Assembly: GCF_000003195.3 (NCBI RefSeq) | Contig: NC_012871.2 | Coordinates: forward strand, 44,248,434-44,312,433 | DNA: 64,000 bases | Reading direction: 5' to 3' | Source: Sorghum bicolor | Lineage: Eukaryota; Streptophyta; Magnoliopsida; Poales; Poaceae | Shown here: in pieces, positions 6,092 to 59,187 of the stretch | How positions within the stretch are numbered: position 1 is the stretch's first letter | Layout of the letters: each line of letters opens with the position of its first letter | Notes under the pieces: model-generated | Database searches by the model: none | Seen by the model: the letters and a program-made list of their open reading frames with translations, nothing else | Told to the model about the DNA's origin: nothing | Program-made: the position numbers and the translations under genes

Positions 6092-6138
6092 GGACAAGTA
6101 TCTGATAGTAGAATTAGGGGTACAAGATACCCACCTGA
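6092..6138 (+). ncRNA. Conserved 3'-UTR two-hairpin module, copy in A
   Basis: The A copy has a decayed first stem (GGACAAGTATC), the linker AGTAGAATTAGG and an intact second hairpin GGGTACAAGATACCC. See the finding on this module; seven copies occur in five families. Confidence 0.55.
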
Positions 6139-11773: not shown

Positions 11774-11819
11774 CAGGTGGGTATCTTGTACCCCTAATTC
11801 TATTGTCGGACACTTGTCC
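11774..11819 (-). ncRNA. Conserved 3'-UTR two-hairpin module, copy in C
   Basis: On the minus strand it carries the first stem GGACAAGTGTCC, the linker TAGAATTAGG and the second hairpin GGGTACAAGATACCC followed by ACCTGAG. Both stems are intact. Confidence 0.6.
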
Positions 11820-12711
11820 ATTTTTACCTCTTGTCTCACTTTTTCTCTTTTTTTTCGAGGTTTCAGGCACTTGCCCCTTTTTATTTCCTCGTATTCACTT
11901 TTTTTTCAGAGCACTCACCCTCCTGGAATAATGTAGCAAGTGGTAGTAACCAAAATATCTCGAGCATTTATTTCACGGGGAATAACAGAGATAGGATAAT
12001 ATTTTTGGCTATTCTCTCCTAGATAGGAGTAGAATAATTTTGGGTGAATCTAGATATGGAAATGAGTGGATGTATGTGGATGCGTACTTCTGGAGTAGAA
12101 GCAGCATGTATGAGTGAACGTGCACGTGAATCTTGATTTTAACTGCATGACAAGCTCCTAAGGGTCTACACAGCTTGACCACACTCAATGCTCATAAGCA
12201 GTAAAAAGTAAATGTATGGTTCATAGTCTACTAAGCTTGTATATATGGCTGTGGTAGGATTTTAAACTCTCATCATACAGGAACTCATCATGCAACATTT
12301 TAAAGATTTTCAAAGATAAAATTCTCCAGAATTCTAGCATCTCTAGGAACAGATAAATAGCAGCTCAACCTTCTCATATCATATCTGTTAACGACTTAGA
12401 CTTTTGATCAGGTACTCTTCCCTCAAATTCAGGTTTAGAGCAAACATTAAATTATAACAGTTATGCCTAAACTTGAGAGAGAGCTCAAATTTGAAAACTA
12501 GGTACTTGGCAGAGCAACTATTCATCATATCCATGTAAGAGTTTATCATTGAAGTTCAGTTTGGCATAGACACTTTATTTCTTTATTTATTTATTTAGCA
12601 AACTAAGCAAAGATATATATAAGCACAAAATGTTTAATTGGGATTTTATGATTATGCATTTTTTTATTATTTGAGTAAAGTATAAATGTGAGTAGAAACA
12701 CTTAGCTGGAT

Positions 12712-12737
12712 AAATGGGGGTGCTCTCCCCCAAGCAG
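12712..12737 (-). promoter_or_regulatory. Internal polypurine-like hairpin, element C
   Basis: On the minus strand TTGGGGGAGAGCACCCCCAT can pair GGGGG with CCCCC around a six-base loop. It is nearly the same as the D copy at 46961. Confidence 0.5.
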
Positions 12738-15279: not shown

Positions 15280-15287
15280 AAAATGCT

Positions 15288-16765
15288 TGTTGACATTCGT
15301 TAAGTGCAATAAGAATAAGAAAAATACCGCAAGCACACAGAATATCATCGTAGCATTTTACCGGGAGTATTCCAGGTATCGTTATTTATATTTTACCACT
15401 GGGAAGCTAAGGTCAAAGAATCTGATAACTTACTATCATGCATCTACTAATTTAATAAACCAACTAGACTAAATTAGGGGTGAATGATATATGATAGGTA
15501 ATAATATAAAGGTGAGAATTCTATGATAAATGCGTAGATAGCCATAGCGGGAGGACAATGGGAGAGACTTGGGTTCCATTATACTTCTCTATTACTTCAG
15601 TTCTATGATAACAAAGAATGAATAGATATAGCAATCACATATTAGCACTTTGGGATATCAGAACACACACCACAGAAAGAGAACTGGAAGGGGGCTGGGA
15701 AGCTCTGACTACGGTCCTACAAACACCGATCCGAACGAGGTGGAATACGTCGACCGTTAGGGCTGTCACTACCCTAGGGCTACCACAACAATCCGCAGGA
15801 CTGGGTGCAACCTCAGGTAACCTCTAGTATAGACACCACGTCTACACTAACGATTACTACTCTAATTACCATGAATAACTAGAGCACTCGATGCGAATGG
15901 AGATCCTATGCCAAAATATAACAACTACACTACTCGATAATAATAAAGGCATAAAAGTAAATACAGAAGATAAATATATTAAAGCATAAGTCTTACAATA
16001 AATATAAAGACATACCAAAACTCTGTAGACTTCTCCAGAACCGAAGCGCAGATCCACTCTCCCTAACTCCCGACTAAAACTAATCTACTACATTAGAATG
16101 TCTAGCCCTAATTCTCTATAGAGGAAAGGTTATCCTTCGAGGGCACCTCTCAACTCTATAATGACATATTTTCCTCCAGGGGCCAGGGGCTTTGCTTATA
16201 TAGTCCTCATCCTTTGTGCGTTTTTGGTTCAGCAGGCGATGTGGTACAAAACTTTCCACCATATCTCATTAAAATGCACATAGACCTTAATGGACCAAAA
16301 TCTGATTTGGGCCCAATTAATCCCGCAGCTCTTTTATGTGGAGTCCTTTTATTAATATCTTTTGATTCCGAACTCCAAATATAGCAAATAATATATGCAT
16401 TTCGATCAGCTCGACGAGATCTTTGCAATGGTGTACTCCATTCTGTGATTGGTGCTTGTACCAGGGCGGGCGCCCTAGGATCAAGGGCGGGCGCCCTGGT
16501 CCCAGGCCTGTCTCGGCTACGCTTCGGTCGAGTTGCTTCTAGAGTCTTCCTGATTATGGAAAATTACCGCACACATTAATTCTCTATGTAAACCCGATGT
16601 GTGGGCCTTTCCTTCGTATTTCCTGATACCCCCCTACAGAAATAGACAAACACCAAAACTCGTGGAATTCTATCAGATAAAACCCTAAGTCTGGGTGTTG
16701 GTTGCATTTGGATCCTTTTCTTTATTCATTTGATGATTATATTTGGTACTTAAGGACCGTCAACA
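15288..16765 (-). repeat. 5' LTR of element C (right copy)
   Basis: This pairs with 9592-11072. A TATA box lies at 16195-16202 (minus) and a GC-rich pair near 16465-16500. A three-base length difference lies in a T-rich run. Confidence 0.92.
16195..16202 (-). promoter_or_regulatory. TATA box of C 5' LTR
   Basis: TATATAAG on the minus strand, the 5' LTR counterpart of the box at 10499 and so the likely promoter of the element. Confidence 0.7.
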
Positions 16766-19932: not shown

Positions 19933-20482
19933 TGCTTGTCCCTGAGCAAACAGCTAAACTCAGATGGATTAGGAGTTGCTTCGATGTTTTCTTTCCTGAT
20001 AGGCACACATGCTTTCATATAAAAATTCTCCCAGTTTAGAGTGAAGTGTCAAGGAGCTTAGTACCTATAGTTAAGTCGACCACTATTCCTCCTGTCTATA
20101 CTTCACCTTTGTTCCAGAGTTTTGCATAAGTTTTCAAAAATAAAGCTCATAGTTCCCAGCTATGATTCTCTCAAGTCTCTCTATATGTGGTATTTGTGGA
20201 TCCTTACAAAAAATGTCACTTACCTAGAGCTAATGGATATTTAAGTGGAGCTCATAGGTGTGAAAAAAGCTCATACATATGTTGTCTAATCGAGCCATGG
20301 ATCCAAAGGAACTCAGCATATAATTAAATCAAGATGTGCATGTGTGGTGGAGTAAATGATAGTGGAAATGTATAAGTGATGATAAAACTTACTTCTCATT
20401 GCTCCTCATATTGCTATCTCTCCTCCTCTTGATCTTTGCTTTGGGAGAACATGGGCTATCTTTTTTTCTTTTCTTTTTTTTT

Positions 20483-20528
20483 CAGGTGGGTAGTAAATAC
20501 CCCTAATTCTACTATCGGACACTTGTCC
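20483..20528 (-). ncRNA. 3'-UTR two-hairpin module, downstream copy in I
   Basis: On the minus strand it has GGACAAGTGTCC, a linker with TAGAATTAGG, and the hairpin GGGTATTTACTACCC, whose loop differs while the stem is kept. Confidence 0.6.
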
Positions 20529-20540
20529 ATTTTTTCCGCT

Positions 20541-20586
20541 CAAGTGGGTATCTTTGTACCCCTAATTCTACTCCGGACACTTGTCC
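20541..20586 (-). ncRNA. 3'-UTR two-hairpin module, upstream copy in I
   Basis: On the minus strand it has GGACAAGTGTCC, linker TAGAATTAGG and hairpin GGGTACAAAGATACCC. It lies 12 bp from the second copy, a tandem duplication like that in F. Confidence 0.6.
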
Positions 20587-21376
20587 ATTTTTACCTCTCG
20601 TCTCACTCTTTTTTCTTTCTTTTTCGAGGTTCCGGGCACTTGCCCCTTTTTATTTCCTGGCATTTTTTGCATAACCCATGCCTCTTCTGCATTGAATCTT
20701 TTTGGAGAGAGAGAATAACAACACTTGGGACAGTGAGTGATAATATTTTTAGCAATTTTAATGAATGGTGGTGGATGGTGTAGTAGATGTGTGCAAGTGA
20801 ATATCTTAATTTAACCACATGAAAAGCTCCTATGGGTCTACACAGCTCGATCAAACTCAATGTGAATATAGTAGCGAAAGATGTTATAGCAAGTATGGCT
20901 GTGGTAGGAATTTTGTCGTACTAGGAACTCATCATGTGATTTGCAAGTTTTCAAAATAAATCTCCAGAACTTAATGTAGTAGGAACAAGTAAACAGTAGC
21001 TCAAACTTTATATCATGCCTTTCTCTTACCTAGACCTTAGTTTTAGGTTCATGCTTCCATAGATAGAAATTTCAGTTTTAGTAATTCCTGGAAGAACTTG
21101 AATGTAAAAGCTAGGTGTTTGAAAGTAAGCAAACAAAGCAACTATTCATCATTTCCATCATGCATCTTTTTGGTCTTTTTTTAGAGATTAAACTTAGCAG
21201 GAAAAATAAAGCACACTTATCTACACACTCTTTTTATGTGGTTTTATGTTTATAGAATGCAGTAAATTAAAGCAAGAAAATATTTATTGGGTTTTCTAAG
21301 ATTTTCTTATATATAATTAAAACACTAAAATAGAAAAGAATTAATAAGAAGAGCAAATAAAAACTTACTTGATAAA

Positions 21377-21402
21377 ATGGGGAGGAACTCCCCCAAGCTG
21401 GA
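21377..21402 (-). promoter_or_regulatory. Internal polypurine-like hairpin, element I
   Basis: On the minus strand AGCTTGGGGGAGTTCCTCCC lies just after the env-position ORF and can pair GGGGAG with CTCCCC. Confidence 0.5.
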
Positions 21403-21416
21403 TGTGGTTGTCGGTC

Positions 21417-22973
21417 TTATCCAATGTTCCAGAATCGCATCATGGTGGTGATGTTGTCGTTCATTGTCGTGGTGTCTTGCCTCAGTTCTTGTACTGCAGT
21501 GGCGTGGTCCTGGTTCCATTTTTGTTGCTGTTCCAGGAGTCGTCCATGTTCCGCTTGCGTATCTTGGATGGCGAGGAGGGTGTTGTCGGTACGGGTGAAG
21601 AAAGCGCCGGCCTCTTTGTAGTAGTCATTCGTGAAAGCATAAGAGGCGTCGGAGTACCGTCCTGCATCGAATTGGGGCGGAGGTCTGGACCCTGAAGCTC
21701 CATATGGATAAGTGGAGTACCTGCCCGTATGGAAAGGCGGGTTTGTCCACTGGTGATCTTGGCTCTCCGGCCATGTCTCCTGTGTTGGCTCTTGTGGTTG
21801 AGCATGTCGAACCCATGGGTCCCGAAGGACTCGGGGGTTGTAGTCGCAATAATGCAGGTGCGCTGCTTCTTCCGGCCCGGGATCAGCTCCATACCAGGTG
21901 CGTTCTTCACAGGTGGTCATCCTTTTAGATGCCACTCGCTGTGGAGCTCTCTGGTTTACCGGTGTTACTGCAATCTCAATCAAATAATTTTGAACAACAT
22001 AGAGGCCAAGGTTCAGGTTAGGTAACCGAATCTTGCCTTTATTATTGTATAACATATACATTATGTTCTCCTCTTTTTTCAACATCCGAGCTTGCCTAAA
22101 TGTGTCATATCCATGATAAATTCGTAACTCGTCTATGAATTCCAATGACGAGTTTTCTAGCAAATGAAGACTAGAGGCTAGACGAGTGACGAGTGAAGTA
22201 CACCCTACAGGTCCCTGAATACTAGGTATACTAAGCCAATGAGAAACCAAAAGTGTAACAGGTGAAGTGGGTACTTTATTTATAGCAGCATATAGCAGTT
22301 GTAAATCTCCTATTCTTACTTTTCTAATATCATCACGATGGAAAAGATTGTACCCGAGCCATTTGTGGAACATCCTAAGAGTGGGGTGTTCCATGTCAGT
22401 GGTTTGGGCTTGGCTATAAAACTCATTTCTAGATATCTCTCTCTAGAACTAGTGTCTCTCAAAATTGGGTAAGTCGGAGTCAATGTCCAGGATACATCTT
22501 GAAGAGAAACCGAGATGGTCGCTCAGTTCTCTCCAAGACAACATAATGTCCTGTTTGAACATCCGAAAAGCGATTCCCCCCTCATAATATTGTAAAGTGC
22601 AAAGAAATTCAAGGGTGAGAAGACGGGAACCCAACTCAGTTATGTTCCAAAAATTTGTCCATCCTACCATCTGGAAAATTAAATCGAATTCAGTATCCAT
22701 ACCTATTTCTTGTAGCAAGATAGGATCAAGAGTGGGGGTGTGAATGAAATCCTTATTCTTTAGCTGCTGGTAAACTTCCTTCTCCCTGCGGGTCTTTAGT
22801 CCAAGGTCTCCTATCTTGAGGAGGACCTTGACTTGCTAATTAGATGAAGATGACGGAGGTGGCGGGGGCGTCGGGTCGATGCTCATCTCTGATTGGTGCG
22901 AGGAGTGTCGGGACGAGCTCCTCGTACTAATGTTCTGGAGGGCCTTCCCTGCGTTCTTCACCTTCTTGAACAT
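21417..22973 (-). pseudogene. Env-position ORF of element I (ATHILA ORF-1-like), three nonsense codons
   Basis: On the minus strand one frame of about 519 codons starts MFKKVKNAGKALQN at 22973 and ends at 21417. TAG codons break it at 22836-22838, 22449-22451 and 22443-22445. Without those it would be one protein: a basic Ser-rich N-terminus with a Pro run, a central globular part (QEIGMDTEFDLIFQ, WTNFWNITELGSR, TLRMFHKWLGYNLF), a Gln/Pro/Tyr-rich middle and a C-terminal heptad-like segment rich in Gln and Asp. I see no signal peptide or membrane helix, so env here means position only. It resembles the ATHILA ORF-1 family (recalled as Pfam PF03078; not checked). The gene has a candidate promoter and splice acceptor upstream. 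Confidence 0.8.
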
Positions 22974-40911: not shown

Positions 40912-42268
40912 ATAAGCTTGATCTTGTTGGCACGTAAGCAGCTGAAAGCGATTTCGAGGTCCTGAATCTGGTCTCCCCGTCGCTTTGACTTGACGACAAT
41001 GTCGTCGACGTATGCCTTGACTGTCGACCCTATATGTTTGCCAAACACGTGGAGCATGCACCGTTGGTATGTTGCTCCCGCGTTTTGAAGCCCGAACGGC
41101 ATGGTTACATAACAATACATCCCAAAAGGCGTGATGAAAGACGTCGCGAGCTGGTCGGACTCTTTAATTTTTATTTGATGGTAACCAGAATACGCATCAA
41201 GGAAAAAAGGGTTTCACATCCCGCAGTAGAATCAACAATTTGATCGGTACGTGGCAATGGAAAAGGAACTTTCAGACATGCTTTATTTAAACTCGTATAA
41301 TCGACACACATCCTCATTTTCCCATTATTTTTCTTAACTGGTACAAGATTTGCTAACCAGTCGGGATGGTGAACCTCCTTGATGAATCCGGCCGTCAAAA
41401 GCTTGTGGATTTCCTCGCCAATGATCTTGCGCTTCTCCTCGTCGAAGCGACGCAGCCGCTGCTTCACTGGCTTGGAACCGGCTCGAATTTCCAAGGAGTG
41501 CTCGGTGACTTCCCTCGGTATGCCTGGCATGTCCGAAGGACTCCATGCAAACATGTCGGCATTTGCACGGAGAAAGTCGACGAGCACGGCTTCCTATTTG
41601 GGGTCGAGGTCGGTGCTGATCGTCAGCACCTTGCCGTCGGAGTTGTTGGGGTCGAGCGGGATCTTCTCTGTCCCATCTGCCGGCTCGAAGTTGCCCGCGT
41701 GGCGTTTGGGCTCTGGAGCCTCAGCCGCCAAGGCGTCGAGCTTTGAGGCAAGCTCGGTGGAGTTCTCGACAGCTTCCCCGTATTCGACGCACTCGACGTC
41801 GCACTCGTATGCGTGCTCGTAGGAGGAGCTAACGGTGATGACGCCCTTGGGCCCTGGCATTTTCAGCTTCAAGTAGGTGTAGTTGGGGATAGCCATAAAC
41901 TTGGCGTAACCCGGGCGCCCGATGATGGCGTGGTACGTGCCTCGGAATCCCACCACCTCAAAGGTGAGGGTCTCCTTTCTGAAATTGGCCGTTGTGCCAA
42001 AGCAGACCGGTAGGTCGATTCGACCTACCGGCAACGCCTTTTTTCCAGGTACAACCCCAATGGAAGCCGCCGGCGCTTGGTTGGAGCTGCGCCCTGTTGA
42101 TGCCGAGAAGGTCGAGGGTCTCGAGGTAGATGATGTTAAGGCTGCTGCCGCCGTCCATCAACACCTTCGAATGCCTGGTGTTGATGATGATGGGGTCGAC
42201 GACGAGCGGGTAGACGCCAGGGGCGACTACCTTGTTGGGGTGGTCGTCTCGATCGAAGGATGGGGGTG
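40912..42268 (-). pseudogene. Element E protease and reverse transcriptase (to the YVDD motif)
   Basis: From the right, the minus strand gives LMDGGSSLNIIYLETLDLLG (protease active site), then TLTFEVVGFRGTYHAIIGRP and an acidic linker. A TAG at 41591-41593 follows, then FAWSPSDMPGIPREVTEHSL, AGSKPVKQRLRRFDEEKRK and CVDYTSLNKACLKVPFPLPR. A frameshift in a T-run near 41210 precedes [32 protein letters not shown] and AYVDDIVVKS. RT stops at 40912, where J begins. The left part of the protease region is cut by D at 42268, and Gag resumes at 50145. Confidence 0.9.
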
Positions 42269-43504
42269 TGTTGACGGTTCTTAAGTATCAATTTTAATTA
42301 TCAAATAAACAAGAGAAAGGACCAATATGCAACCATCACCTAGAATTAGGGTTTGATCTGACAGAATTTCACGAGTTTTGTTGTTTATCTGTTTCTGCAG
42401 GGGGTTATCAGGAAATAAGGAAGAAAGGCCCACATGTCGGGATTACATAGAGATATCAACGCACCGCGTAATTTTACATCATCTAGAAGACTCCAAAAGC
42501 CACGAGACCGAAGCGGAGGCGAAGCTGGGCCAGGCCCAGGGCGCCCGCCCTAGTAGCCTGGGCGCCCGCCCCCCTGCTGGAGTCAATTCAGGACTCCTTC
42601 GCTCGGGATATTCCACCGACCTATTGGATCAAGAAAAACATAGTACCACCTCACCTATCGACCCAAAAACGCATAGAAGGGGAGGACTATATAAGCAAGG
42701 CCCCCCTGGCCCCTGGAAGACATGAAGAAATTATCATAGAGACTGAGGGGTGCCCTCGAAGGAAAACCCCTTCTCTAATTAATATTTCTTTTTAGGCTTA
42801 GCAATCAATGTAAGGTAGAAATAGATCTTCTAGTTTCTACTAGATTGAGAGAGATAGAGTGGAGGTGTAGAGTGGAGGAAGCCCGGCCTGTCGGTGTCTA
42901 CTCCAAGCTTGTACCTGCGGGATCAAGTTCTCCTAACCCGAAGCTTGCTCCTAGGATTCTTCAGTAATTCGACTTCTAAATTCTAGTAAGTTCTTGTTTT
43001 ATTGTTCTTATGGTTTATGAGTTTACTTTAATCTCTTCGCGTAGAGTTTAGAGTAATCATTGCTGGCGTAAACGTGGTGTTTAGGCTGGGGTACTCATAG
43101 ATATTCCCTGACTAGCTGGACCGTGGTAGTAGTGAGGAACGTGACATTTCCGAGCTACCTTTGTAGATCACATCTCGCTAGCATGAAGGATAGGGTTTAT
43201 AGGTGCGGGTTGAACATCCTTTGTGGTGTCTAGATTCCGTTAGCCTCCCCATTAGAACAGTAGATCATCCTTACCAAGGTTAGAAGGAGACTACGGTTGC
43301 AACCTTCTCTATTTATCACTCACATCGAAAGACATTCTTTGTGCCTAAAGGGATAGTAGCAATAGATTTGGTTAGTCAGATGCACCCTTTCTCCCAGTGG
43401 TAAAAATATAAATACGATAACTCTGGATAACCTCCCGGGTGAAATGCTCACCGATATCCGTGCGCTTGCGGATCAATTCCTTATTGCGTTCCCAAATATC
43501 AACA
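42269..43504 (+). repeat. 5' LTR of element D
   Basis: TGTTGACGGTTC to AAATATCAACA. It holds a GC-rich pair (42538-42571) and the TATA box TATATAAG (42688-42695). Confidence 0.94.
42688..42695 (+). promoter_or_regulatory. TATA box of D 5' LTR
   Basis: TATATAAG in GGAGGACTATATAAGCAAGG, followed by the shared CCCCTGGCCCCTGG stretch. Confidence 0.75.
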
Positions 43505-45730: not shown

Positions 45731-46476
45731 GTGACACCGTATCAAGAGGTGCAGACATCAAGGTCCACACCTAATCAAATGATGCACCTAAAGGATGAAG
45801 ATGGTGGAAAGTCTTGTCCAGAAGACTTAAAACATTGGATCCTTGTCGGAAGAGGTCAACATCGTCGACTCAAGTCACCTTTCTTGATCAAGAAGGACGA
45901 CCCTGGTGTTCCAATCATCGAGTGCACAACCAATAGATACTCTTTTTAGAAAACACTCTACGACACCGGATCTAACGTCAACATAATGGCCGCAGTCACT
46001 TATCAGCTCCTGCATGGAAACATGCCCCTACAACCAATATATATTTAGCTCCAGATGATTTTCAGAACATTGATATGGGAGAAGACGAGTACGATCCACC
46101 CATCATCTTACAAAGACCATTCCTCAACACTATCCAAGTTATCATCTACATTGGAACCGGAGAAGTCCATGTGTATTTCCCCTCTGAGAAGGTATGCCAT
46201 TACTTTAATGATTCTAACTATATAGTTGAAGATTCTAAGCAGGTCAGGACAAGAAGAAGACGATGCAACCGCAACCAGAGGAGGCAAATCATCAGGGACG
46301 GATGGGCAGACTACGAAGGAAAAGTTGTAAGGTCAGAAGACGTTGAGTTTAAACAGAATTATCCAGAGGAGACCGAAGCACCAAGTCAGGTGTGGAAAAG
46401 GAAGATAACTATACATGAAGAGGAGGCGCTACCGGAAGTACCGACTACGCCACCCAACGAACCTCAGGATAATTGA
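45731..46476 (+). pseudogene. D protease region, broken
   Basis: TPYQEVQTSRSTPN and KSPFLIKKDDPGVPIIEC lead to a stop (TAG near 45947). A DTGSNVNIMAAVTYQLL active-site segment follows. The region after MPLQP has stops and a deletion of the LQMADQT strand. From 46075 the frame is open: MGEDEYDPPIILQRPFLNT (ILQRP for ILGRP) and the long charged tail ending PNEPQDN. The tail matches the second protease domain of A almost residue for residue, while gag matches F, so D looks mosaic. Confidence 0.8.
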
Positions 46477-46960
46477 GAAGGAGGAGAGTCCCGTTCGGAG
46501 GACTTAAAAACACCGAACGCCTTGCCAAGAGGTAAACTTGATAGTTATCCTTTCCCTTTCAATTATTTCAAGTAGTTCACTTAGTTCATTAAGTTCTAAA
46601 CAGAAAGTAAAAATGTGAAAAACAGTAAGCCCCATGTGAGGATACGAGTGGCATAAAACCCATAAGTACATTCACTGTGGTGGCATAAAAATAAAACAAA
46701 AATATTTTTCTGCTTTATAAAATAAAAATATAAAAACAGGGAGTAATAATTATTAAGGAGTCTCAACATGATAAAGGCTAGATATTTATGCTAACACTTA
46801 ATTAGTTCCACAAGCTTTGTTGTCTATTAGAGCTCCACAGAATCTAAGAATCAACAAGATTGGCAGACGGAGGATATTCTAATCGCTGTCACAATGCTGC
46901 TAACTTTCAAATACACCTCTGCCACCTGCTAGCTACATCAAGAGAAATTACGTCAAAATT

Positions 46961-46988
46961 CAGCTTGGGGGAGAGCACCCCCATTTAT
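46961..46988 (+). promoter_or_regulatory. Internal polypurine-like hairpin, element D
   Basis: CAGCTTGGGGGAGAGCACCC continues with CCATTTAT and can pair GGGGG with CCCCC. Confidence 0.5.
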
Positions 46989-48393
46989 CTCGATAAGTAT
47001 TTCTATCTATCTTTATACTTATATTATTTTAGAATATAAATATACATAACTATGAAAAACCAAATAAAGATTTTATGCTTATATATATATGTCTTTTGCT
47101 TAGTGTGTTTAATAAATAAATAAAGTGGCTATGCTAATCTGTATCTAAATAAAACTCAAGCATGGAAATGATGAATAGTTGCTCTGCCTAATTTGCACAT
47201 TTTAAGTTCTCTCTCAAGTTTAGACATAACTGTTATAATTTAAAGCTTGCTCTAGACCTAAACTTGTGGGATGAAAACTTGATCTGAAATCTAAGTTGTT
47301 AACGGATACGATATGGGAAGGTTGAGCTGCTGTTTATCTGTTTCTAGAGATGCTAGAATTCTGGAGAATTTTATATTTGGAAATCTTTAAAATGTTGCAT
47401 AATGAGTTCCTGTATGATGAGAGTTTAAATTCCTACCACAGCCATATATACATGCTTGCTAGACTTCGAGCCACACAATTACTTTTTACTGCTTATGAGC
47501 ATTGAGTGTGGTCAAGCTGTGTAGACCCTTAGGAGCTTGTCATGTGGTTAAATCAAGATTCACTTGCACGTTCACTCACACATGCTACTTCTACTCCGGA
47601 AGTACCATCCACATATATCCATACATTTCCATCTTCAGAATCACCCAAAAATATTCTACTCTTAATCCGGGAGAGAATAGCCAAAAATAATTTTGTTCTT
47701 CCTTGTGTAATAAATGCCTCAAGATCAATAAAGAGTATTATTATTATGTCTTGTGTGTCTCTACTTTATTTTTGTGCAAGAAAGCAGAAAACAAGTATGG
47801 GGGAGATCCCTCGACATGCTAAACACACTCCGACTACACCACTCCACGATTCAGGTACACACTCTGCACACTTTAATCTACACATATATATATTTTAGAT
47901 TATGCAGAATATTGTTCCCGACATGATAAAATAAAAAGATTAAAATATTTCTAATCATGATTAATCTCAATCTGTGATATTTCTTGAAAACTTGCAATTA
48001 GTATAAAATCATTTTTTAAAAACCCTGTGTTACTTAAGTCAAGATGGAATATGTGATGGTAGAGTATGAGTTTCTTATTCTTGATATCATTGTTGCTTGG
48101 AGAATTTATTTCAAAATGTTCAAATTCCTAGCTACCATCCTCAGTGTTTTATATGCCTGATAAAACTAAAATATTAAATATGATTATAAAAGCTATCTGC
48201 TCTGTATTGAGTTTGTTCAAAATGAGTTAGACCCTTGTTGAGAGATTTATCATGCTCCTAAGATCAAGACATTATTTCAGTAAGATTCACTCTTCCGAAG
48301 TATTATTGCATTAGAGGCATGGGCTATGCAAAAATAGAAGATATTTCGAGGAAATAAAAAGGAGCAAGTGCTCGACAACCTCGCAGAAAAAAT

Positions 48394-48437
48394 GGACAAG
48401 TGTCCGGAAGTAGAATTAGGGGTACCTCGGTATCCAC
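48394..48437 (+). ncRNA. 3'-UTR two-hairpin module, copy in D
   Basis: GGACAAGTGTCC, linker AGTAGAATTAGG, then GGGTACCTCGGTATCC. In the last stem a G-C pair has become G-U, keeping the fold. Confidence 0.6.
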
Positions 48438-48909
48438 TAAAAAAAAAGAAAAGAAAAAAAAATGACAGCCCATGGTCCCTCTAATAAGCAATATGCCAGC
48501 AAGAGTTGACAAAGTTTTTAATTTCCAAAGTCTTTGATCTAAGAGTATGACATTTCCCTCCTCGGATCCCGTTTTGATCAGGCAATAAATGCAAAGTAAG
48601 TATGCTTGAGAATTCTTGCAAAATTAAAACAACCTCAGTGAGATATATATAAAAGATAATGAGTGATCCGAGAGAACCTATGAGGATCAAAAGGTATGCT
48701 AACTTTCTTTCAAAAATATACAAAAACTCCAAGTGACAGGATTGAGAAGAAAGGATCTTTACTCTTAACCATATACATCCCTGACTATGGTACACAGTGG
48801 ATTTTTAACACCCTGCAAATATAAAGAATGTTTTAAATGTTTACCCTAGATATTTTTCTTAACCATCCTTTTTCTCGAGGACGAGTAAAAGCCTAAGTAT
48901 GGGGGTATT

Positions 48910-50144
48910 TGTTGACGGTTCTTAAGTATCAATTTTAATTATCAAATAAACAAGAGAAAGGACCAATATGCAACCATCACCTAGAATTAGGGTTTGATCT
49001 GACAGAATTCCACGAGTTTTGTTGTTTATCTGTTTCTGCAGGGGGTTATCAGGAAATAAGGAAGAAAGGCCCACATGCCGGGATTACATAGAGATATCAA
49101 CGCACCGCATAATTTTACATCATCTAGAAGACTCCAGAAGCCACGAGACCGAAGCGGAGGCGAAGCTGGGCCAGGCCCAGGGCGCCCGCCCTAGTAGCCT
49201 GGGCGCCCGCCCCCTGCTGGAGTCAATTCAGGACTCCTTCGCTCGGGATATTCCACCGACCTATTGGATCAAGAAAAACATAGTACCACCTCGCCTATCG
49301 ACCCAAAAACGCATAGAAGGGGAGGACTATATAAGCAAGGCCCCCCTGGCCCCTGGAAGACATGAAGAAATTATCATAGAGACTGAGGGGTGCCCTCGAA
49401 GGAAAACCTCTTCTCTAATTAATATTTGTTTTTAGGCTTAGCAATCAATGTAAGGTAGAAATAGATCTTCTAGTTTCTACTAGATTGAGAGAGATAGAGT
49501 GGAGGTGTAGAGTGGAGGAAGCCCGGCCTGTCGGTGTCTACTCCAAGCTTGTACCTACGGGATCAAGTTCTCCTAACCCGAAGCTTGCTCCTAGGATTCT
49601 TCAGTAATTCGACTTCTAAATTCTAGTAAGTTCTTGTTTTATTGTTCTTATGGTTTATGAGTTTACTTTAATCTCTTCGCGTAGAGTTTAGAGTAATCAT
49701 TGCTGGCGTAAACGTGGTGTTTAGGCTGGGGTACTCATAGATATTTCCTGACTAGCTGGACCGTGGTAGTAGTGAGGAACGTGACATTTCCGAGCTACCT
49801 TCGTAGATCACATCTCGCTAGCAGGAAGGATAGGGTTTATATGTGCGGGTTGAACATCCTTTGTGGTGTCTAGATTCCGTTAGCCTCCCCATTAGAACAG
49901 TAGATCATCCTTACCAAGGTTAGAAGGAGACTACGGTTGCAGTCTTCTCTATTTATCACTCACATCGAAAGACATTCTTTGTGCCTAAAGGGATAGTAGC
50001 AATAGATTTGGTTAGTCAGATGCACCCTTTCTCCCAGTGGTAAAAATATAAATACGATAACTCTGGATAACCTCCCGGGTGAAATGCTCACCGATATCCG
50101 TGCGCCTGCGGATCAATTCCTTATTGCGTTCCCAAATATCAACA
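48910..50144 (+). repeat. 3' LTR of element D
   Basis: This matches 42269-43504 with about 15 substitutions and one base of length difference in a C-run. TATA box at 49328-49335. It ends AAATATCAACA before GGGTG. Confidence 0.94.
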
Positions 50145-50795
50145 GGGTGCTCGACCAGCTGAGGTACTGGGGCACTGCCATCCTTGCTGCAAAGACTTCA
50201 TGGCGTTCGCTCTTGCGTTGCCTTGCAGTCAGCCGCGTCGAGGGACCACCGTAGATCATGTAGCAGTCGTGGACGGCAGGGAAACCGTCGTCGTCTTTGC
50301 CGTCCCCCTTGTCGCCGCTCTTTTCTTTCTTCAAGTCGTCACGCGCGTCCTTCTTGAACCCCAGACCGTCGAAATGCTTTTTCAGCATACGGCAGTCCTC
50401 AAGCTTGTGGTTTGCCCCTCCTTTATGGTAAGGGCATGGCTCCTTTAGCATCTTGTCGAAGATAGCCCCCTCTGGAGGGCCTCGAGTCCTTTTGCGCTCC
50501 ATGGCGGCGACGAGATCGTCGTTGAGGTCTTCCCGCTGGAACGGCCGTGTTTTCTTCTTCTTCTTGTTCTTCTTGGGTCCTCGACTGGGGCCCTCATTAT
50601 CATCGGCGGACGGTTTGCCTTTCCTTCCTTCGCAGCTGAAAAAGGCGCCGACAGCTTCTTCCCCAGCAGCGTAATTTGCCACTACGTCCATTAGCTCGTC
50701 GACGGTCTGAGGGCGATTCCGACCCAACTCCCACACCAAATCTCGGCTGGTGGTGCCGGAGACGAAGGCCAGGATGATGTCGTGGTCAGGGATGT
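50145..50795 (-). pseudogene. Element E gag, C-terminal half
   Basis: On the minus strand the frame runs PDHDIILAFVSGTTSRDL-like residues, then VWELGRNRPQTVDELMDVVA, a Lys-rich patch, and CPYHKGGANHKLEDC, the His-containing zinc motif of Tat Gag. MAVPQYLSWSST leads into the protease beyond D. The left end joins 42268 through GGGTG and the right end joins 59188 through GATGT, so three pieces make one gene. The frame is open from 50739 to 50145. Confidence 0.88.
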
Positions 50796-51217
50796 TGTTG
50801 ACGGTCCTTAATGCTCACATTTAACCATCAACTAATCATGGAAAAGGATCCAAATGCAACCAACACCTAGACTTAGGGTTTTATCTGATAGAATTCCACG
50901 AGTTTTGGTGTTTGTCTATTTCTGCAGGGGGTTATCAGGAAATATGAAAGAAAGACCCACACGTCGGGTTTACATAGAGATATTAACGTGCCGCGCAATT
51001 TTCTACCATCTAGAAGAGTCCAGAAGCCACGGGAACGAACGGGAAGGAAATCGGGCTCGGAGGCAGGGCGCCCGCCCAACTCTCCTGGGCGCCCGCCCAG
51101 CTACAGTGCCCAATCAGGACACGTTTCGCGGATTATGCTCCACCGACCTAAAGGATCAAGAAAAACCGTGCGATCAATGTCGGTTTGATCCGACGGCCCA
51201 GATTCACTTGAAGGGAC

Positions 51218-51224
51218 TATAAAA
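51218..51224 (+). promoter_or_regulatory. TATA box of F 5' LTR
   Basis: TATAAAA in GGGACTATAAAACCAGACCC, as in element A. The 3' LTR copy is at 58337-58343. Confidence 0.8.
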
Positions 51225-51310
51225 CCAGACCCCCCCGGCCCCTGGAGATCATACCTCTTCTACAGAATCAAAGCTAGGGTTTCAATTCTTCATCCAAGTA
51301 GAGAGGATCC

Positions 51311-51414
51311 CTCTAGTTCTTCTAGTTCTACCTCTAGTTCATCTAGATCTAGATCTAGTTCATCTAGTTCTAGTTCTAGTTCTTCTAGTTCTAGTTCTAG
51401 TTAGTTCTAGTTGT
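51311..51414 (+). repeat. TCTAGT-type microsatellite in F 5' LTR
   Basis: About 100 bp built from CTAGTT, CTAGAT and TCATCTAG units, just after the likely transcription start. The 3' LTR tract (58430-58525) is about one 6-bp unit shorter, which explains the whole LTR length difference. Confidence 0.85.
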
Positions 51415-51670
51415 AATCTAGAAAATAGGGAGAGAGAAGAGGAGAGCGGAGGAGGAGCCGGATCTGTCGGATCTTCCTCAACATTGTACTTTTGCAGCAT
51501 CTGGTTCGTTCTTCATCGTTCTCCAGGTTCTTCAATTCATAATCCTGAGTTCTTTAATTACTTTTATTTACATTCAAGTTATTTATTGGATTCCCGCTTG
51601 CATCAAGTGCTCTAATCTTTGCAACATTAGAGTAGTAATTAATAGATTAGACGTGGTGTTTAGTCTTGCA

Positions 51671-51805
51671 ATTACCTGGAATTGCACCCAATCCTGCGGA
51701 TTGTTGTGGTAGCCTTAGGGTAGTGACAGCCCTAACGGTCGACGTATTCCACCTCGTTCGGATCGGTGTTTGTAGGACCGTAGTCAGACCTTCCTAGCCC
51801 CCTTC
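51671..51805 (+). repeat. LTR block shared by F and C
   Basis: Nearly identical to C 9993-10125 and 15689-15821 (reversed), while the sequence around it differs. It includes TTAGGG-TAGTGACAG-CCCTAA, a possible hairpin, and the R/U5-side segment CGGTCGACGTATTCC. Confidence 0.75.
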
Positions 51806-52081
51806 TCATCTCTTTCCGTGGTTAGTGCTCTGATGTCCCGATATAGATAATCTTGAAGTAATTCTTGATTCTTAGATCAACTAGAGAACTCTCAGGAAAC
51901 TTCCTCTCTTCCCACCAAAAATAATCATATAGTTATCCTTGGGCGATCTTGGATCTTAATTAGTACACTCACGTTCCCTGTGGAAAATCGATACTCTGGA
52001 ATACTCCCGGGTGAAGGCTACATCGGTATCCGTGCGCTTGCGGATTTTTCTGTTTGCGTTTAAAATACCCAACAAGCTTTC

Positions 52082-52191: not shown

Positions 52192-55100
52192 ATGGATTTC
52201 ACTCCTATCTATAAATTCTTTGCTCCAAAGGGTGAGTTATTAGAGCCACCACCATCATCACATCCAATTCTTACAGATGGCTATGACCTCGGCCCTGATC
52301 TAATAGCCATGATTCAGGAGCAATCCTTCTCTGGGCAAGTAGATGAAGATCCATACACCCACCTTAGAGAATTCGAGCAGTTGTGTTCTTGCTGATCTAT
52401 TTCTGGCATGACACAAGAAACCCTTAAATGGAAATTATTTCCGTTCTCCCTTTTGGGAAGAGCAAAAAAGTGGTATGCTCATTCTGTAGGAGGCGTTAAT
52501 GGAAATTGGGATGAACTTCGGGACAACTTTTGTCTCGCTTTCTTCCCACTTTTTCGAATCGCTGACCTTAGAATCGAAATTCTTACATTCAAACAAAGAG
52601 AGAAGGAAACTTTAGGAGCAGCTTGGGCTAGGTTCACAAGCCTTACCAATTCCGGTCCAAACCTTTCTCTGCCTGACCATGTATTGTACTACCACTTTTA
52701 TCGTGGTCTAAATAGGGAAGCTGCTCTTCACCTCGACATTGCTTCAGGAGGCTCATTCACACACAAACTCACAGATGAGGGGAGAGCTATCCTAGAAAGA
52801 ATCCTTGAAAATACCCCTTACACAGGCATTTATGATGAGTTTCCTGAAGAAGAAAAAGAAGTCGAGCCTGATCCTAAACCAAAAGATGAGGAACTTGCAA
52901 CCGAGTTAGAAATTCCACCTGACCCATCCATTAATTTGGTTGTAGAGAAACCTCCTGATAAAGGAATGCAAAACCAACTAAGGGATGATGAACCACCACC
53001 TTTAGAGCATCCCTTTGAATTCGAGGAAGATCTTTTTGAAGATTATGGAAACACCTCGAATTTTCCTATCCAAACACGACCTCTAGCAAGGACCACTCAA
53101 TCTGTTCTAAGAGTAGAATCTGTTGCCATAGAACACATCAAAAGCCTTTCGGCTATTCTGAGTTATGAATGGCTAACAGAAGCAGAGCTGTCTCCTGAGG
53201 TAGCTCCGATCATCACACCTTCAACCATTCTTCTGTGCCAAATTAGACGGTCCGTTAGGAAGGTCCACTACAATCCATATGTTGGGATAAATGTTATTTC
53301 CAAGGAGTTATCTGACACTCTTTATCCCAACGAGTCCATAACCCCATCTCAAAAAATTTTACAAAGTCCATCTAGATTAATTCTAGAGAGCCATGGGGTA
53401 TTAAGGGCAGTTCCTATTAGAATCAAGTACTCTGGAATATGTCTAGATTTTCACATTTATGACATACCGGAGATTCCTCTCCTGATTGGTAGACCAATCA
53501 TGAAACTTCTACAAGAACAACCACAACGAGGTCATTTAGACTTCAAGGTTGGGAATTCCACTATTGTTGTTCCTCTTGTTAGATCAATTAACACGATAGT
53601 GGAACCCAAACTTGACCCAGATCCTATTGAGGAGATCTTAATGGTGACTCAAGAGGAGATGGCCCAACCATTCTTTAATCATGAACACTTTGTTCAAGAA
53701 GAAGAAGAGTTGGTAGAACCCGTTGAGCTAGACAAAAATGAACTACCTTCACCTCCTTCGATAGAATTAAAACCTCTTCCTTCTGGCCTTAGATATGTCT
53801 TCTTGCACAATAACCCAAAAACTCCAGTAATTATCAGTGACAAGCTTTCCGATTATGAAACACAACAACTTGTCACTGTTCTTGAAAGACATAGATCAGC
53901 ATTTGGTTACTCTCTCGAGGATCTCACGGGCATTAGTCCCATTCTCTGCACTCATCGTATCCCTATTGATCCTAATTTTACACCTTCAAGGGAACCACAA
54001 CGGAGACTTAACAATGCTATGCGAGAGGTTGTTAAGAAAGAGGTCCTCAAACTCTATCGTGCTGGGATTATTTATCCTGTGCCACATAGTGAGTGGGTTA
54101 GCCCTGTCCAAGTAGTGCCAAAGAAAGGAGGAATGACGGTCGTTAGGAATGAGAAGAATGAACTCATCCCTCAACGAATTGTCACTGGGTGGCGTATGTG
54201 TATTGACTATCGAAAACTCAATAAGGCTACAAAGAAAGATCACTTTCCGTTACCCTTCATTGATGAAATGTTGGAACGGCTTGCAAACCACTCTTTCTTT
54301 TGTTTCCTTGATGGTTATTCTGGATATCACCAAATCCCAATCCACCCAGATGACCAAGAAAAGACTACCTTTACATGCCCGTATGGAACTTATGCATACC
54401 GACGAATGTCGTTCGGATTGTGCAATGCTCTAGCTTCTTTCCAACGGTGCATGATGTCTATTTTCTCAGACATGATTGAGAAGATCATGGAGGTTTTCAT
54501 GGATGATTTTACCGTCTATGGCAAAACCTTCGATCATTGTTTGGAGAATTTAGATAGAGTCTTGCAGCGATGTGAAGAAAAACACTTAATCCTGAACTGG
54601 GAGAAATGCCATTTTATGGTTCAGGAAGGAATAGTGCTAGGACATAAAGTGTCCGAACGTGGTATAGAGGTGGACAAAGCAAAGATTGAAGTTATTGAAA
54701 AACTTCCACCTCCCACGAATGTGAAAGGAATCCGTAGCTTTTTGGGACATGCAGGGTTCTATAGACGCTTTATCAAGAATTTCTCTCAAATTGCTAGACC
54801 CCTAACTAGTCTCCTAGCTAAGGATGCACCTTTCATCTTTAGTGATGAGTGTCATGAATCTTTTCAAACTCTTAAGAAATCACTCATCTCAGCCCCGATT
54901 ATCCAACCACCTGATTGGAATCTTCCTTTTGAGATCATGTGTGATGCTAGCGATTTTGCGGTTGGTGCCGTTTTAGGACAAACCAAGGATAAAATGCATT
55001 ATGCCATATCCTACGCTAGCAAAACCTTGTCTGGACCACAGCTCAATTACACTACAACTGAAAAAGAGCTTTTAGCTGTTGTCTTTGCTATAGACAAGTT

Positions 55101-56658
55101 TAGATCTTACTTAGTGGGGGCAAAGATAATCATCTATTCAGACCATGCTGCTCTCAAGTACCTCCTCACTAAGAAAGATGCTAAGCCTCGTCTAATTCGA
55201 TGGATTCTTCTACTCCAAGACTTTGACATAGAAATCCGAGATAGGAAGGGAGTTGAGAATTCCGTAGCCGACCACTTGTCTAGGCTTCAGTATAAGGAAA
55301 CACATGATGAACTTCCCATAAATGACTACCTAAGGGATGACACCCTACTTAAGATAACACATGCAGATCCATGGTACGCAGACATCATAAACATTATAGT
55401 AAAAGGCTATGTCCCACCTGGTGCAAACAAAAGGAAGTTGCTTCACGATAGTCGTTTCCACCTTTGGGATGAGCCATATCTTTTCCGAGTCTGCGCTGAT
55501 GGACTCTTGAGAAGGTGTGTTCCTATGGCCGAGGCTACTCAAATTATGGAAAGATGCCATGCCTCGCCATATGGAGGACACTATGGAGCATTTCGGACAC
55601 ATGCTAAAATTTGGCAAAGTGGTTTTTTCTGGCCAACGATGTATGAAGATACAAAGGACTTTGTCAGGAGATGCCACCGGTGTCAAAAACATGGGAATAT
55701 CAACTCATGAAATGAAATGCCTCTCACAAATAATCTTCAAGTAGAACTTTTCGATGCATGGGGCATTGATTTCATGGGGCCATTCCCTATGTCCGGGAAT
55801 TGCGAGTATATCTTAGTAGCTGTGGATTACGTGTCCAAATGGGTAGAAGCCTTACCTTGTCGATCAGCTGATTCAAAACATGCCAAGAGAATGTTCCATG
55901 AAGTAATCTTTCCTCGCTTTGGTATACCCCGGATAGTCATAAGCGATGGAGGTTCCCACTTCATCGACAAAATCTTCCGGAAGTACCTAGCCGATCATGG
56001 AGTTCGACACAACGTCGCAACACCATACCATCCTCAGACTAGCGGTCAAGCCGAAACATCTAACAAACAAATCAAAAATATGTTACAAAAGACCGTAGAT
56101 GAGATGGGTAAGGGGTGGAAGGACAAACTTCCTGATGCACTTTGGGCATATAGAACTGCATTCAAAACACCCATAGGCATGTCACCTTATCAACTTGTAT
56201 ATGGAAAAACTTGTCACTTGCCTGTGGAAGTAGAGTTTAAGGCTCATTGGGCACTCAAGAAATGGAACATGGATCTCCACCTCGCTAGTGAGAATCGTCT
56301 GATGCAACTATCTGAGCTAGAAGAATGGAGAGAGAAAGCCTACCACAATTCAAGGATCTATAAAGAGAGAACAAAACGATGGCATGATAAGAGAATCAAG
56401 CACAAGGAGTTTAAGCCTGGAGATAAGGTTATACTATTCAATTCAAGAGTTAAGCTCTTTGGGCATGGTAAGCTACGAAGTAAGTGGGATGGACCATACA
56501 AGGTTATTGACACTTCAACTCATGGAGCCATTACCATCCAAGATGACATAGGTAACACTTTTAAGGTAAATGGTCAACGCTTGAAAATCTATCTTGAGCC
56601 ACAAAGCAACCTGGTAGAGGAACTTGATGCGATTGAGTTCATAGAATTCTCATACTAA
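52192..56658 (+). pseudogene. F gag-pol polyprotein (Athila), interrupted by two TGA codons
   Basis: One frame of about 1488 codons from ATG 52192 to the TAA ending at 56658. TGA codons break it at 52393-52395 (codon 68) and 55708-55710 (codon 1173); there is no frameshift. Gag: [33 protein letters not shown]. Protease-like region near 53260-53520: [13 protein letters not shown] where D-T/S-G is expected, ending LLIGRPIM, so the catalytic Asp appears missing. [54 protein letters not shown] (DD near 54502). RNase [41 protein letters not shown]. Zinc finger: [10 protein letters not shown] to CHRCQKHG. Integrase: [26 protein letters not shown], and WDGPYKVID near the end. No chromodomain. Confidence 0.93.
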
Positions 56659-56801: not shown

Positions 56802-56823
56802 CAGCTTGGGGGAGGCACCCCCA
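56802..56823 (+). promoter_or_regulatory. Internal polypurine-like hairpin, element F
   Basis: CAGCTTGGGGGAGGCACCCC lies 150 bp after the integrase stop and can pair GGGGG with CCCCC around a five-base loop. Confidence 0.5.
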
Positions 56824-57357
56824 CGTGTATCTAGATAAGTATTACTTTTCTTTCTTGGTTTTATTTACTAGTATTCAGAAATAAAAAAAAATGCATAACC
56901 ATGAAACCAAAAAAAGTTTTTCTTTTGAGTAATATACAATAGTTTTGTGTAATCCTAAGTTTTAAATAAAAATAAAAAAAGTTTGATTTAAGTCTAGGTA
57001 ATTGACAAACATGATATGAGAAGGTCTGAGCTACTATTTAACTTGTTCCATGTTTTGCTAGAGTTCTGGAGATTTTATCTTTTAAAAATCTAAAAAATAT
57101 AATAATAAAAAAAAATGAGATCATAATACCTAGAGTCTTATAAGATATAAATATTAAAACTGTGGGCACTTGCTTTGTTCAAGCCATTGTTAATTCTTGT
57201 AGTTTTGGTTGAGAGAATTATCATGCTCCCAAGATCAAGATCTTTTTGTTTTAACAATATAAAAGATTCACTCTTCTGAAGTATTATTGCGTTAGAGGCA
57301 TGGGACTATGCAAAACTTTGATTCGAAAAAAAGAGAAGTGAGACGAGAGGTAAAAAT

Positions 57358-57405
57358 GGACAAGTGTCCGAAGTAGAATTAGGGGTACAAAGATACCCAC
57401 CTGAG
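57358..57405 (+). ncRNA. 3'-UTR two-hairpin module, first copy in F
   Basis: GGACAAGTGTCC, linker AGTAGAATTAGG, then GGGTACAAAGATACCC and ACCTGAG. Both stems are intact. Confidence 0.62.
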
Positions 57406-57415
57406 TGAAAAAAGA

Positions 57416-57461
57416 GGACATGTGTCCGACAGTAGAATTAGGGGTACTCGCTGCCCACTTG
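57416..57461 (+). ncRNA. 3'-UTR two-hairpin module, second copy in F
   Basis: GGACATGTGTCC, linker AGTAGAATTAGG, then GGGTACTCGCTGCCC. The last stem keeps pairing through one G-U and has a wholly different loop. Confidence 0.62.
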
Positions 57462-57897
57462 AAAAAAAAGAGACTGAAAAAAAAGAAAGAAAAAAAAGAA
57501 AAGAAAAAAAAAATGATAGCCCATGGTCCCTCTAATAAGCAATATGCCAGTAAGAGATGACAAACTTTTCAAAAAGGTCAAAGGTCTTGATCTAGGAGTA
57601 TGACATTCCTCTCCCTTACTCCGAGCGTTGACATAGCAAAATGCAAAGTAAGTATGCTAAAACTTTTAAAGCTCTACTTATATATCCTTCGAGAAAAAGG
57701 CAAAAGCCTCAGTTTTATTTTGGGAACTTACAAAAATACTCCAGAACAAAGGTAAGACAGAAGAACTTGAGACATAGTGCTTGACTTGATCGTTCTGTTT
57801 TTCAATCACTTAAGACCTTAAAAACCCTGTAGTAAGAGGCATAAAAGTAACCCCTGTTTTCTTGCTGATTTTAGCTTTGCTCAGGGACGAGCAAAGG

Positions 57898-57914
57898 TTA
57901 AGCTTGGGGGAGCT
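57898..57914 (+). promoter_or_regulatory. Polypurine tract of element F
   Basis: TTAAGCTTGGGGGAGCT immediately precedes TGTTGATGG of the 3' LTR. Confidence 0.88.
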
Positions 57915-59187
57915 TGTTGATGGTCCTTAATGCTCACATTTAACCATCAACTAATCATGGAAAAGGATCCAAATGCAACCAACACCTAGACTTAGGGTTT
58001 TATCTGATAGAATTCCACGAGTTTTGGTGTTTGTCTATTTCTACAGGGGGTTATCAGGAAATATGAAAGAAAGGCCCACACGTCGGGTTTACATAGAGAT
58101 ATTAACGTGCCGCGCAATTTTCTACCAACTAGAAGAGTCCAGAAGCCACGGGAACGAACGGGAAGGAAATCGGGCTCGGAGGCAGGGCGCCCGCCCAACT
58201 CTCCTGGGCGCCCGCCCAGCTACAGTGCCCAATCAGGACACGTTTCGCGGATTATGCTCCACCGACCTAAAGGATCAAGGAAAACCGTGCGATCAATGTC
58301 GGTTTGATCCGACGGCCCAGATTCACTTGAAGGGACTATAAAACCAGACCCCCTTGGCCCCTGGAGATCATACCTCTTCTACAGAATCAAAGCTAGGGTT
58401 TCAATTCTTCATCCAAGTAGAGAGGATCCCTCTAGTTCTTCTAGTTCTACCTCTAGTTCATCTAGATCTAGTTCTAGTTCATCTAGTTCTAGTTCTTCTA
58501 GTTCTAGTTCTAGTTAGTTCTAGTTGTAATCTAGAAAATAGGGAGAGAGAAGAGGAGAGCGGAGGAGGAGCCGGATCTGTCGGATCTTCCTCAACATTGT
58601 AATTTTGCAGCATCTGGTTCATTCTTCATCGTTCTCCAGGTTCTTCAATTCATAATCCTGAGTTCTTTAATTACTTTTATTTACATTCAAGTTATTTATT
58701 GGATTCCCGCTTGCATCAAGTGCTCTAATATTTGCAACATTAGAGTAGTAATTAATAGATTAGACGTGGTGTTTAGTCTTGCAATTACCTGGAATTGCAC
58801 CCAATCCTGCGGATTGTTGTGGTAGCCTTAGGGTAGTGACAGCCCTAACGGTCGACGTATTCCACCTCGTTCGGATCGGTGTTTGTAGGACAGTAGTCAG
58901 ACCTTCCTAGCCCCCTTCTCATCTCTCTCCGTGGTTAGTGCTCTGATGTCCCGATATAGATAATCTTGAAGTAATTCTTGATTCTTAGATCAACTAGAGA
59001 ACTCTCAGGAAACTTCCTCTCTTCCCACCAAAAATAATCATATAGTTATCCTTGGGCGATCTTGGATCTTAATTAGTACACTCACGTTCCCTGTGGAAAA
59101 TCGATACTCTGGAATACTCCCGGGTGAAGGCTACATCGGTATCCGTGCGCTTGCGGATTTTTCTGTTTGCGTTTAAAATACCCAACA
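57915..59187 (+). repeat. 3' LTR of element F
   Basis: This matches 50796-52074 with about 12 substitutions and a 6-bp shorter TCTAGT tract. It starts TGTTGATGG (a C to T change from the 5' copy) and ends AATACCCAACA before GATGT. Confidence 0.95.

Follow-up and report, generated by a model that had tools for sequence, protein, structure and literature searches.

The window, by which is meant the whole 64,000-nt stretch of Sorghum bicolor DNA analysed here, was found to hold five LTR retrotransposons (A, C, D, F and I) in which a conserved, sense-oriented hairpin cluster, covarying in part, occupies a set position upstream of the 3′ LTR. That this cluster near the 3′ end is almost unchanged, with much of the remaining element diverged, suggests a signal which the element RNA needs in order to move. 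The preferred reading, to which a probability of roughly 0.4 is given, is a structured sense-strand RNA which acts in cis and is recognised in trans, most likely for packaging, with export or stability of the RNA as a close rival. A selected cis-acting sense RNA had already been put forward in the original prediction; position, strand, conservation and retention without reverse transcriptase (RT) and integrase (IN) speak for it, but the wobble compensation that was offered in its favour does not. Little is known about the way in which RNA of plant LTR retrotransposons is selected for packaging, export or protection, and a short, very abundant and structurally testable element which occurs in both autonomous and RT-less elements offers a concrete handle on this choice.

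The host elements are tentatively assigned by their anatomy to an Athila-like Ty3/gypsy group. On the plus strand, the LTR of element A starts at 167 and its 3′ LTR runs from 6865, element D has LTRs at 42256–43504 and 48895–50144 and element F at 50789–52074 and 57908–59187. On the minus strand, element C has LTRs at 9591–11072 and 15287–16765, and the 3′ LTR of element I runs from 19911, no 5′ LTR of I having been found in the window. Element F possesses an open frame for gag-RT-RNaseH-IN zinc finger at 52396–55710 followed by the integrase core at 55711–56658 (both plus strand), and thus a domain order of gag-RT-RNaseH-IN with a single RNase H region and an integrase, together with a primer-binding site (PBS) reading TGGCGCCGTTGCCGGGG. 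What we take to be the rule for the Athila lineage is the Ty3/gypsy order gag-RT-RNaseH-IN without a second RNase H and a PBS for tRNA-Asp. The PBS TGGCGCCGTTGC(C/A)GGGG follows the 5′ LTR in A, C, D and F, and of the 120 listed relatives of the F integrase, those with a name come from plants. F is the only one of the five with a detectable pol, no RT or integrase having been found in A, C, D or I by tblastn of the two frames of F (E up to 1e-4); it is possible that RT has decayed beyond detection by tblastn in A, C, D or I. Gag-like stretches were identified by tblastn against F in A (38.75% over 80 aa and 27.3% over 55 aa) and D (28.9% over 149 aa), and protease-like frames with no RT behind them in A, in D and in the stretch 5′ of the non-coding region of I.

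The original prediction had described seven copies of a two-hairpin module, and all seven were confirmed in the 64-kb window, each in sense orientation and co-directional with the element that carries it. The coordinates first given for A, D and F were correct, and those for C and I were about 5 nt too low. From stem 1 to stem 2 the copies span 6092–6132 in A, 48394–48435 in D and 57358–57398 and 57416–57456 in F on the plus strand, and 11779–11819 in C and 20546–20586 and 20488–20528 in I on the minus strand. F copy 1 (57358–57404, plus) consists of stem 1 GGAC-AAGT-GTCC (57358–57369), the linker and stem-loop 2 including a 3′ CCTGA extension, and F copy 2 (57416–57462, plus) of stem 1 GGAC-ATGT-GTCC, the same linker and a stem-loop 2 with loop CTCGC and a U·G pair. 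The remaining modules lie at 6092–6138 in A (plus), 48394–48440 in D (plus; loop CCTCGG), 11773–11819 in C (minus) and 20540–20586 (copy 1; loop CAAAGA) and 20482–20528 (copy 2; loop TTTAC) in I (minus). They sit 0.5–0.8 kb upstream of the 3′ LTR in all five elements, and the stretch from the polypurine tract (PPT) to the 3′ LTR start of F (57901–57914, plus) begins 445 nt after stem 2 of its last module. The linker, which had been called fixed, reads AGTAGAATTAGG in six of the seven copies and AATAGAATTAGG in C. Stem 1 is fully paired in six copies, A being the sole decayed one, as had been noted, with one broken pair (GGAC/ATCT), and stem 2 is paired in all seven if G·U is allowed (relatives counted separately, as also in the 47-module and 11-hairpin pairing analyses below). 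When a covariance model made from the seven copies was run at E < 0.2 in 64 kb, only the modules and three related upstream hairpins were matched (F copy 2 and I copy 1, directly adjoining such matches, have no entries of their own), so that the module matches are not due to chance.

Tandem copies are present in F and I as described, and their sequences suggest that the two copies of a pair are old paralogues, F copy 1 and I copy 1 differing in two columns, F copy 1 and F copy 2 in many. The copy-1 type comprises F copy 1 and I copy 1, together with A and C as judged by flank and loop; the copy-2 type comprises F copy 2, I copy 2 and D, the last judged by its 3′ flank. Both types were found again at other genomic loci. 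A 9-bp hairpin, UUAGG GGUA–loop–UACC CA CCUGA, gives a better drawing of stem 2, with 97.8% of cells paired in the seven copies against 16–49% in slid controls. In its UUAGG/CCUGA extension helix 98.4% of cells are paired, and this extension was adopted instead of an outer helix AGGU/ACCU, which as a general feature has 75% of cells paired. Among 47 modules from 48 loci, standard pairs make up 231/235 of the outer and 188/188 of the inner part of the extended stem 2, a count biased towards pairing by taking one module per locus with at most one change per stem-2 arm from loci mostly chosen by pattern. The 3′ sides CCTGA, CTTGA and CTTAA all fit one nearly constant 5′ side. The stem-1 loop is AAGT in 36 of 41 modules, and CACGTG (loop ACGT) occurs in loci L019 and L026. 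Folding z-scores of the five regions range from −2.5 to −3.4 in sense and from −2.7 to −4.2 in antisense, so the strand is not told by folding energy. No open frame of 150 codons runs across the hairpin region.

A hairpin of the stem-1 class, overlooked in the original prediction and here called hairpin 0, was identified upstream of the module in A, C, D and I. Its plan is CGAGG, an A-rich 10 nt, GGGC AAGU GCCC, 4–5 nt and CCTCG. In A it lies at 6021–6056 (plus), with outer stem CGAGG/CCTCG, an A-rich bulge and inner stem GGGC-AAGT-GCCC (6036–6047); in D at 48347–48383 (plus), with a compensated inner stem GAGC-AAGT-GCTC (48362–48373); in C at 11856–11891 (minus), with inner stem GGGC-AAGT-GCCT (11865–11876); and in I at 20625–20660 (minus), with inner stem GGGC-AAGT-GCCC (20634–20645) and an imperfect outer stem. 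Hairpin 0 is absent from F and from three other F-type loci (L016, L019 and L026). An extra short hairpin, GCAT-GGGACT-ATGC, was read by eye upstream of the F modules (57298–57311, plus), and the GCAT/ATGC stem was likewise read in D and I with other loops. Two smaller observations belong here. An A-type element at locus L029 (380–640) shows a clean loss of the module with hairpin 0 retained, a natural deletion. A sequence resembling the module linker, AGTAGAATTAGA, recurs about 100 nt downstream of the C module (11679–11690, minus) and in L029 (513–524).

The surrounding UTR had been described as much less alike than the module, and this was found for some pairs of elements. In 50-nt windows the block of module and hairpin 0 is top-ranked between F and I (0.98; median 0.62), A and I (0.94) and C and I (0.92), but between D and I it scores 0.86 and is outscored by another stretch at 0.90. 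When A, C, D and F are compared with one another, equal or higher scores are reached by parts of the LTR (its start included), by shared internal DNA or by the stretch after the module. By BLAST of F with A, C and I and of A and C with I, the block is 86–91% identical and other aligned stretches are 67–81% identical, the latter range excluding the PPT/LTR start and paralogue matches. The block is more conserved than these stretches and is thus an island, the LTR start being a second one. The first 300–500 bp of the LTRs are 74–84% alike between elements despite differing LTR lengths and genes, and these conserved starts (165–600, 42269–42640, 50796–51250 and other LTR starts in the window) form a second conserved non-coding block. 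The five families of the original prediction hold as five elements, but the label is loose, with A and C 84% alike across their 3′ regions.

The assembly from which the window derives (709,120,108 bases in 846 contigs) was searched for further copies. The exact module pattern gave 5370 matches (2660 + 2710), and the module core with up to 3 mismatches gave 9566 (4798 + 4768, tandem copies counted apart), with none for either reversed pattern; the exact PPT-LTR junction gave 2595 + 2677 matches, its reversed control likewise none. An exact module lies 460–776 nt (median 733) upstream on the same strand at 64 of 100 listed junctions, although these, like all sets of 100 listed places mentioned here, sit on the first one to three contigs and are not a random sample. 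Two further strings match 14 of the remaining 36, which brings the same-strand module to 78 of the 100 listed, and the one inspected of the 22 unmatched junctions (L029) has lost its module and kept hairpin 0. None of 100 listed exact modules has a listed junction on the opposite strand within 1.5 kb. There was no exact junction string within 1.5 kb for 34 of the first 100 listed exact modules; of ten of these that were fetched, nine show a same-strand LTR start by fuzzy match and one (L014) shows none. An LTR start lies downstream on the same strand in 19 of 20 fetched loci, which were chosen by pattern and so favour intact modules. Twenty 10-kb stretches taken at 1-Mb steps (200 kb, including 50,051 N) yielded four junctions and four strong module matches, the pairs all being co-directional and 726–751 nt apart, and two weak model matches just upstream of two strong modules. 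Matches scattered by random strand and position are therefore not what is seen in this one genome.

The wobble compensation could not be upheld. Within the seven copies there is no double change at any pair of stem 1 or stem 2, and their covariation score was equalled in 212 of 500 shuffles (500 of 500 for the extended stem 2), as expected by chance. Four changes occur in stem 1 and the 5-bp stem 2; three keep the pair through G·U and one breaks it, and these are uninformative. The GGTATCC of D, one of the examples given, is private to the window copy as far as seen, the D-type loci L012 (= L004) and L027 reading TACCC. The other, TGCCC in F copy 2, is a subfamily wobble: of three other F-type copies it is shared by L016 and L019 but not by L026.

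Only the related hairpin 0 showed compensated changes. Across the stem-1 class, with 11 hairpins of which 10 are distinct, 97.5% of cells are paired and double changes occur at two pairs, representing few events and not eleven; the covariation score was reached by none of 500 shuffles and the number of covarying pairs by 37 of 500. Hairpin 0 with A at stem position 2 (GGAACC flank) has 1103 genomic copies, with 94 GCTC, 5 GCCC and 1 GTCC among 100 listed, and with G at this position 3826 copies, with 94 GCCC, 3 GCTC, 2 GTCC and 1 GGCC among 100 listed. A tree of 40 of the 42 usable loci, made from the stretch after hairpin 0, requires three changes for the GAGC/GCTC state. Parsimony has D and a large A-type group acquiring this state independently, with the window element A reverting to GGGC/GCCC within the A-type group, where it adjoins a GAGC/GCCC copy. 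The tree omits L042 and L043 (stretch starting inside hairpin 0), L014 and L048 (no LTR start in the stretch) and L009–L013 (duplicates of L001–L005). An independent-pairs test on it found only four pairs, with a median p of 0.5, and recombination between co-packaged RNAs could move both sides of hairpin 0 together. Position 3 of stem 1 is changed in 48 genomic copies (complete set, counted by hand), and the pair is kept in 21 of them, 20 by G·U; such rare stem-1 variants look like neutral decay.

The domain would span about 100–200 nt of 3′ non-coding sequence in one Ty3/gypsy group. In the window it would be made up of three to five short hairpins (hairpin 0 plus one or two modules) joined by A-rich single strands, and in F of two modules without hairpin 0. 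It probably acts as RNA and in cis, and would be read by something common to the families, with exposed AAGU loops and single-stranded AGUAGAA as the putative recognition surface. The AAGU tetraloop is a loop recognised by a yeast RNase III. Less surely, the reader may be the Gag/nucleocapsid (NC) of autonomous relatives, for which the domain would mark genomic RNA for entry into the particle, and non-autonomous elements may keep the domain to exploit the machinery of these relatives. A reader of the Gag type is preferred because it would best explain retention by elements without RT and integrase; this retention would fit a packaging signal bound by Gag/NC, and a host export or stability factor would explain the same facts nearly as well. 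The broader proposal of a 3′ RNA recognition code, shared in trans by autonomous and RT-less Athila-like families of grasses, in which LTR, PBS, PPT and hairpin cluster, all kept by non-autonomous families, form the set that gives them access to the particle proteins of another element, is put forward tentatively. The packaging signals described in one review sit at the 5′ end, unlike the 3′ domain here, and this counts against packaging (PMC5035971). In mouse mammary tumour virus, selective packaging reportedly hinges on a purine loop (PMC8096270), and RNA packaging of Ty3 is given as dependent on UTRs or POL sequence (PMC4974528).

It is possible, though somewhat less likely than packaging, that the cluster instead serves the export or stability of genomic RNA and is read by host proteins and not by Gag, in the manner of the CTE, the RSV direct repeats, the IAP RTE, the MusD MTE and the plant ENE. 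The RSV direct repeats which flank src export unspliced RNA, so that repeated 3′ elements are a known layout (PMC5035971, PMC7551171). These repeats and CTE, RTE and MTE are likewise cis RNA elements of retroelements, but they serve an animal export pathway and the likeness to the cluster noted here is one of layout (PMC5035971, PMC7551171, PMC12786077). Elements without genes need export or stability as much as packaging, and the 3′ UTR structure of Evade is reported to raise RNA stability and mobility of a plant element (PMC12501189). This ENE likewise is structured RNA between the ORF and the 3′ LTR which aids a plant LTR element; its U-rich tracts are described as clasping poly(A), whereas the cluster here has A-rich single strands (PMC12501189). 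An ENE was rejected, there being no U-tract in the hairpin regions, that is, no T-run of at least 4 in the five element regions (126, 126, 101, 131 and 183 nt) and one run of 3, in I. Plants reportedly use TREX and not TAP/NXF1, and most plant elements are stated to lack introns, which further weakens the export reading; the same 2025 review states that RNA export of plant LTR retrotransposons has not been directly studied in plants (PMC12786077).

The remaining alternatives were considered less probable. The block could have no present function and be alike through swapping of 3′ ends by template switching and the youth of its copies, an unlikely account with which the mosaic D (resembling A up to about 47725 and F from about 48237) agrees, as do module stems that vary so little that most pairs are uninformative; exchange of long stretches would not, however, yield islands at 86–91% against 67–81% in the other aligned stretches. 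Slightly more unlikely is a DNA-level element, with the stem-1 class as a CANNTG dyad (CAAGTG, CATGTG, CACGTG) bound by a host factor in an internal enhancer or insulator. Such a dyad is presumably a motif of bHLH or bZIP proteins; CA..TG is kept in 10 of the 11 stem-1-class hairpins of the window (the A module reads CAAGTA), CACGTG is found in L019 and L026, and the surroundings are A-rich. Dimer binding to DNA does not, however, need the paired changes of hairpin 0, in stem 2 the loops vary while the arms stay fixed, and the motif keeps to one strand and one place. That GGACNNNNGTCC is a dimer-initiation palindrome pairing between two genomic RNAs appears very improbable, since the dominant AAGT loop is not self-complementary, even though the ACGT-loop copies of L019 and L026 are perfect 12-nt palindromes.

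Tandem repeats in the 3′ UTR of plant Ogre/Retand elements, between pol and the 3′ LTR, were reportedly described by Macas in 2009. Repeats of this type have the same position as the cluster here, but are presented as family-specific arrays of three or more copies (PMC11963269). A family-specific satellite-like array was rejected, with one or two copies per element and a core common to the A, C, D, F and I types. Close to the 3′ LTR, divergent Sireviruses likewise have non-coding motifs in common that are highly conserved; unlike the cluster, these belong to Ty1/copia elements and are given as copies of the PPT, an inverted repeat located at it and LTR boxes (PMC2829016). The 3′ end of Ty3, a Ty3/gypsy element, is also needed in cis, but as part of a bipartite primer-binding site, and the RNA structure is called uncharacterised in that source (PMC4974528). 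No Rfam 15 family matched the hairpins at its gathering cut-off (in the whole window only snoR71 did so, elsewhere), and searching the F and I regions with E up to 1 gave one match, CRISPR-DR64, with an E of 0.2, below cut-off and outside the modules. Nothing informative came from viral contigs (by pattern and by integrase) or other genome contigs (by pattern), and no description of the module or its core letters was found in the literature, in a search that lay largely outside subscription papers. While LTR retrotransposons with a cis-acting RNA element at the 3′ end are known in principle, the sequence, the hairpin architecture and the sharing between element types appear to be new. The cluster also provides a marker with which to trace which non-autonomous families depend on which helper.

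Some minor observations were made on the host elements themselves. Element D looks mosaic, being 88% A-like over 46057–47723 and F-like (67%) over 48237–48606. Besides the terminal PPT, an internal polypurine-like (A/T)GCTTGGGGGAG occurs in F (56803–56814, plus), D (46962–46973, plus), I (21388–21399, minus) and C (12725–12736, minus), followed by a C-rich stretch and lying upstream of the 3′ hairpins; this copy is possibly a central PPT or a hairpin. Element I has an open frame of 341 aa (21420–22442, minus) with no Pfam or NCBIfam match. The Rfam snoR71 match (RF00097, 61.8 bits; 2539–2644, minus) is antisense to the gag-like stretch of A, and represents either a captured snoRNA or an Rfam family which contains retrotransposon sequence.
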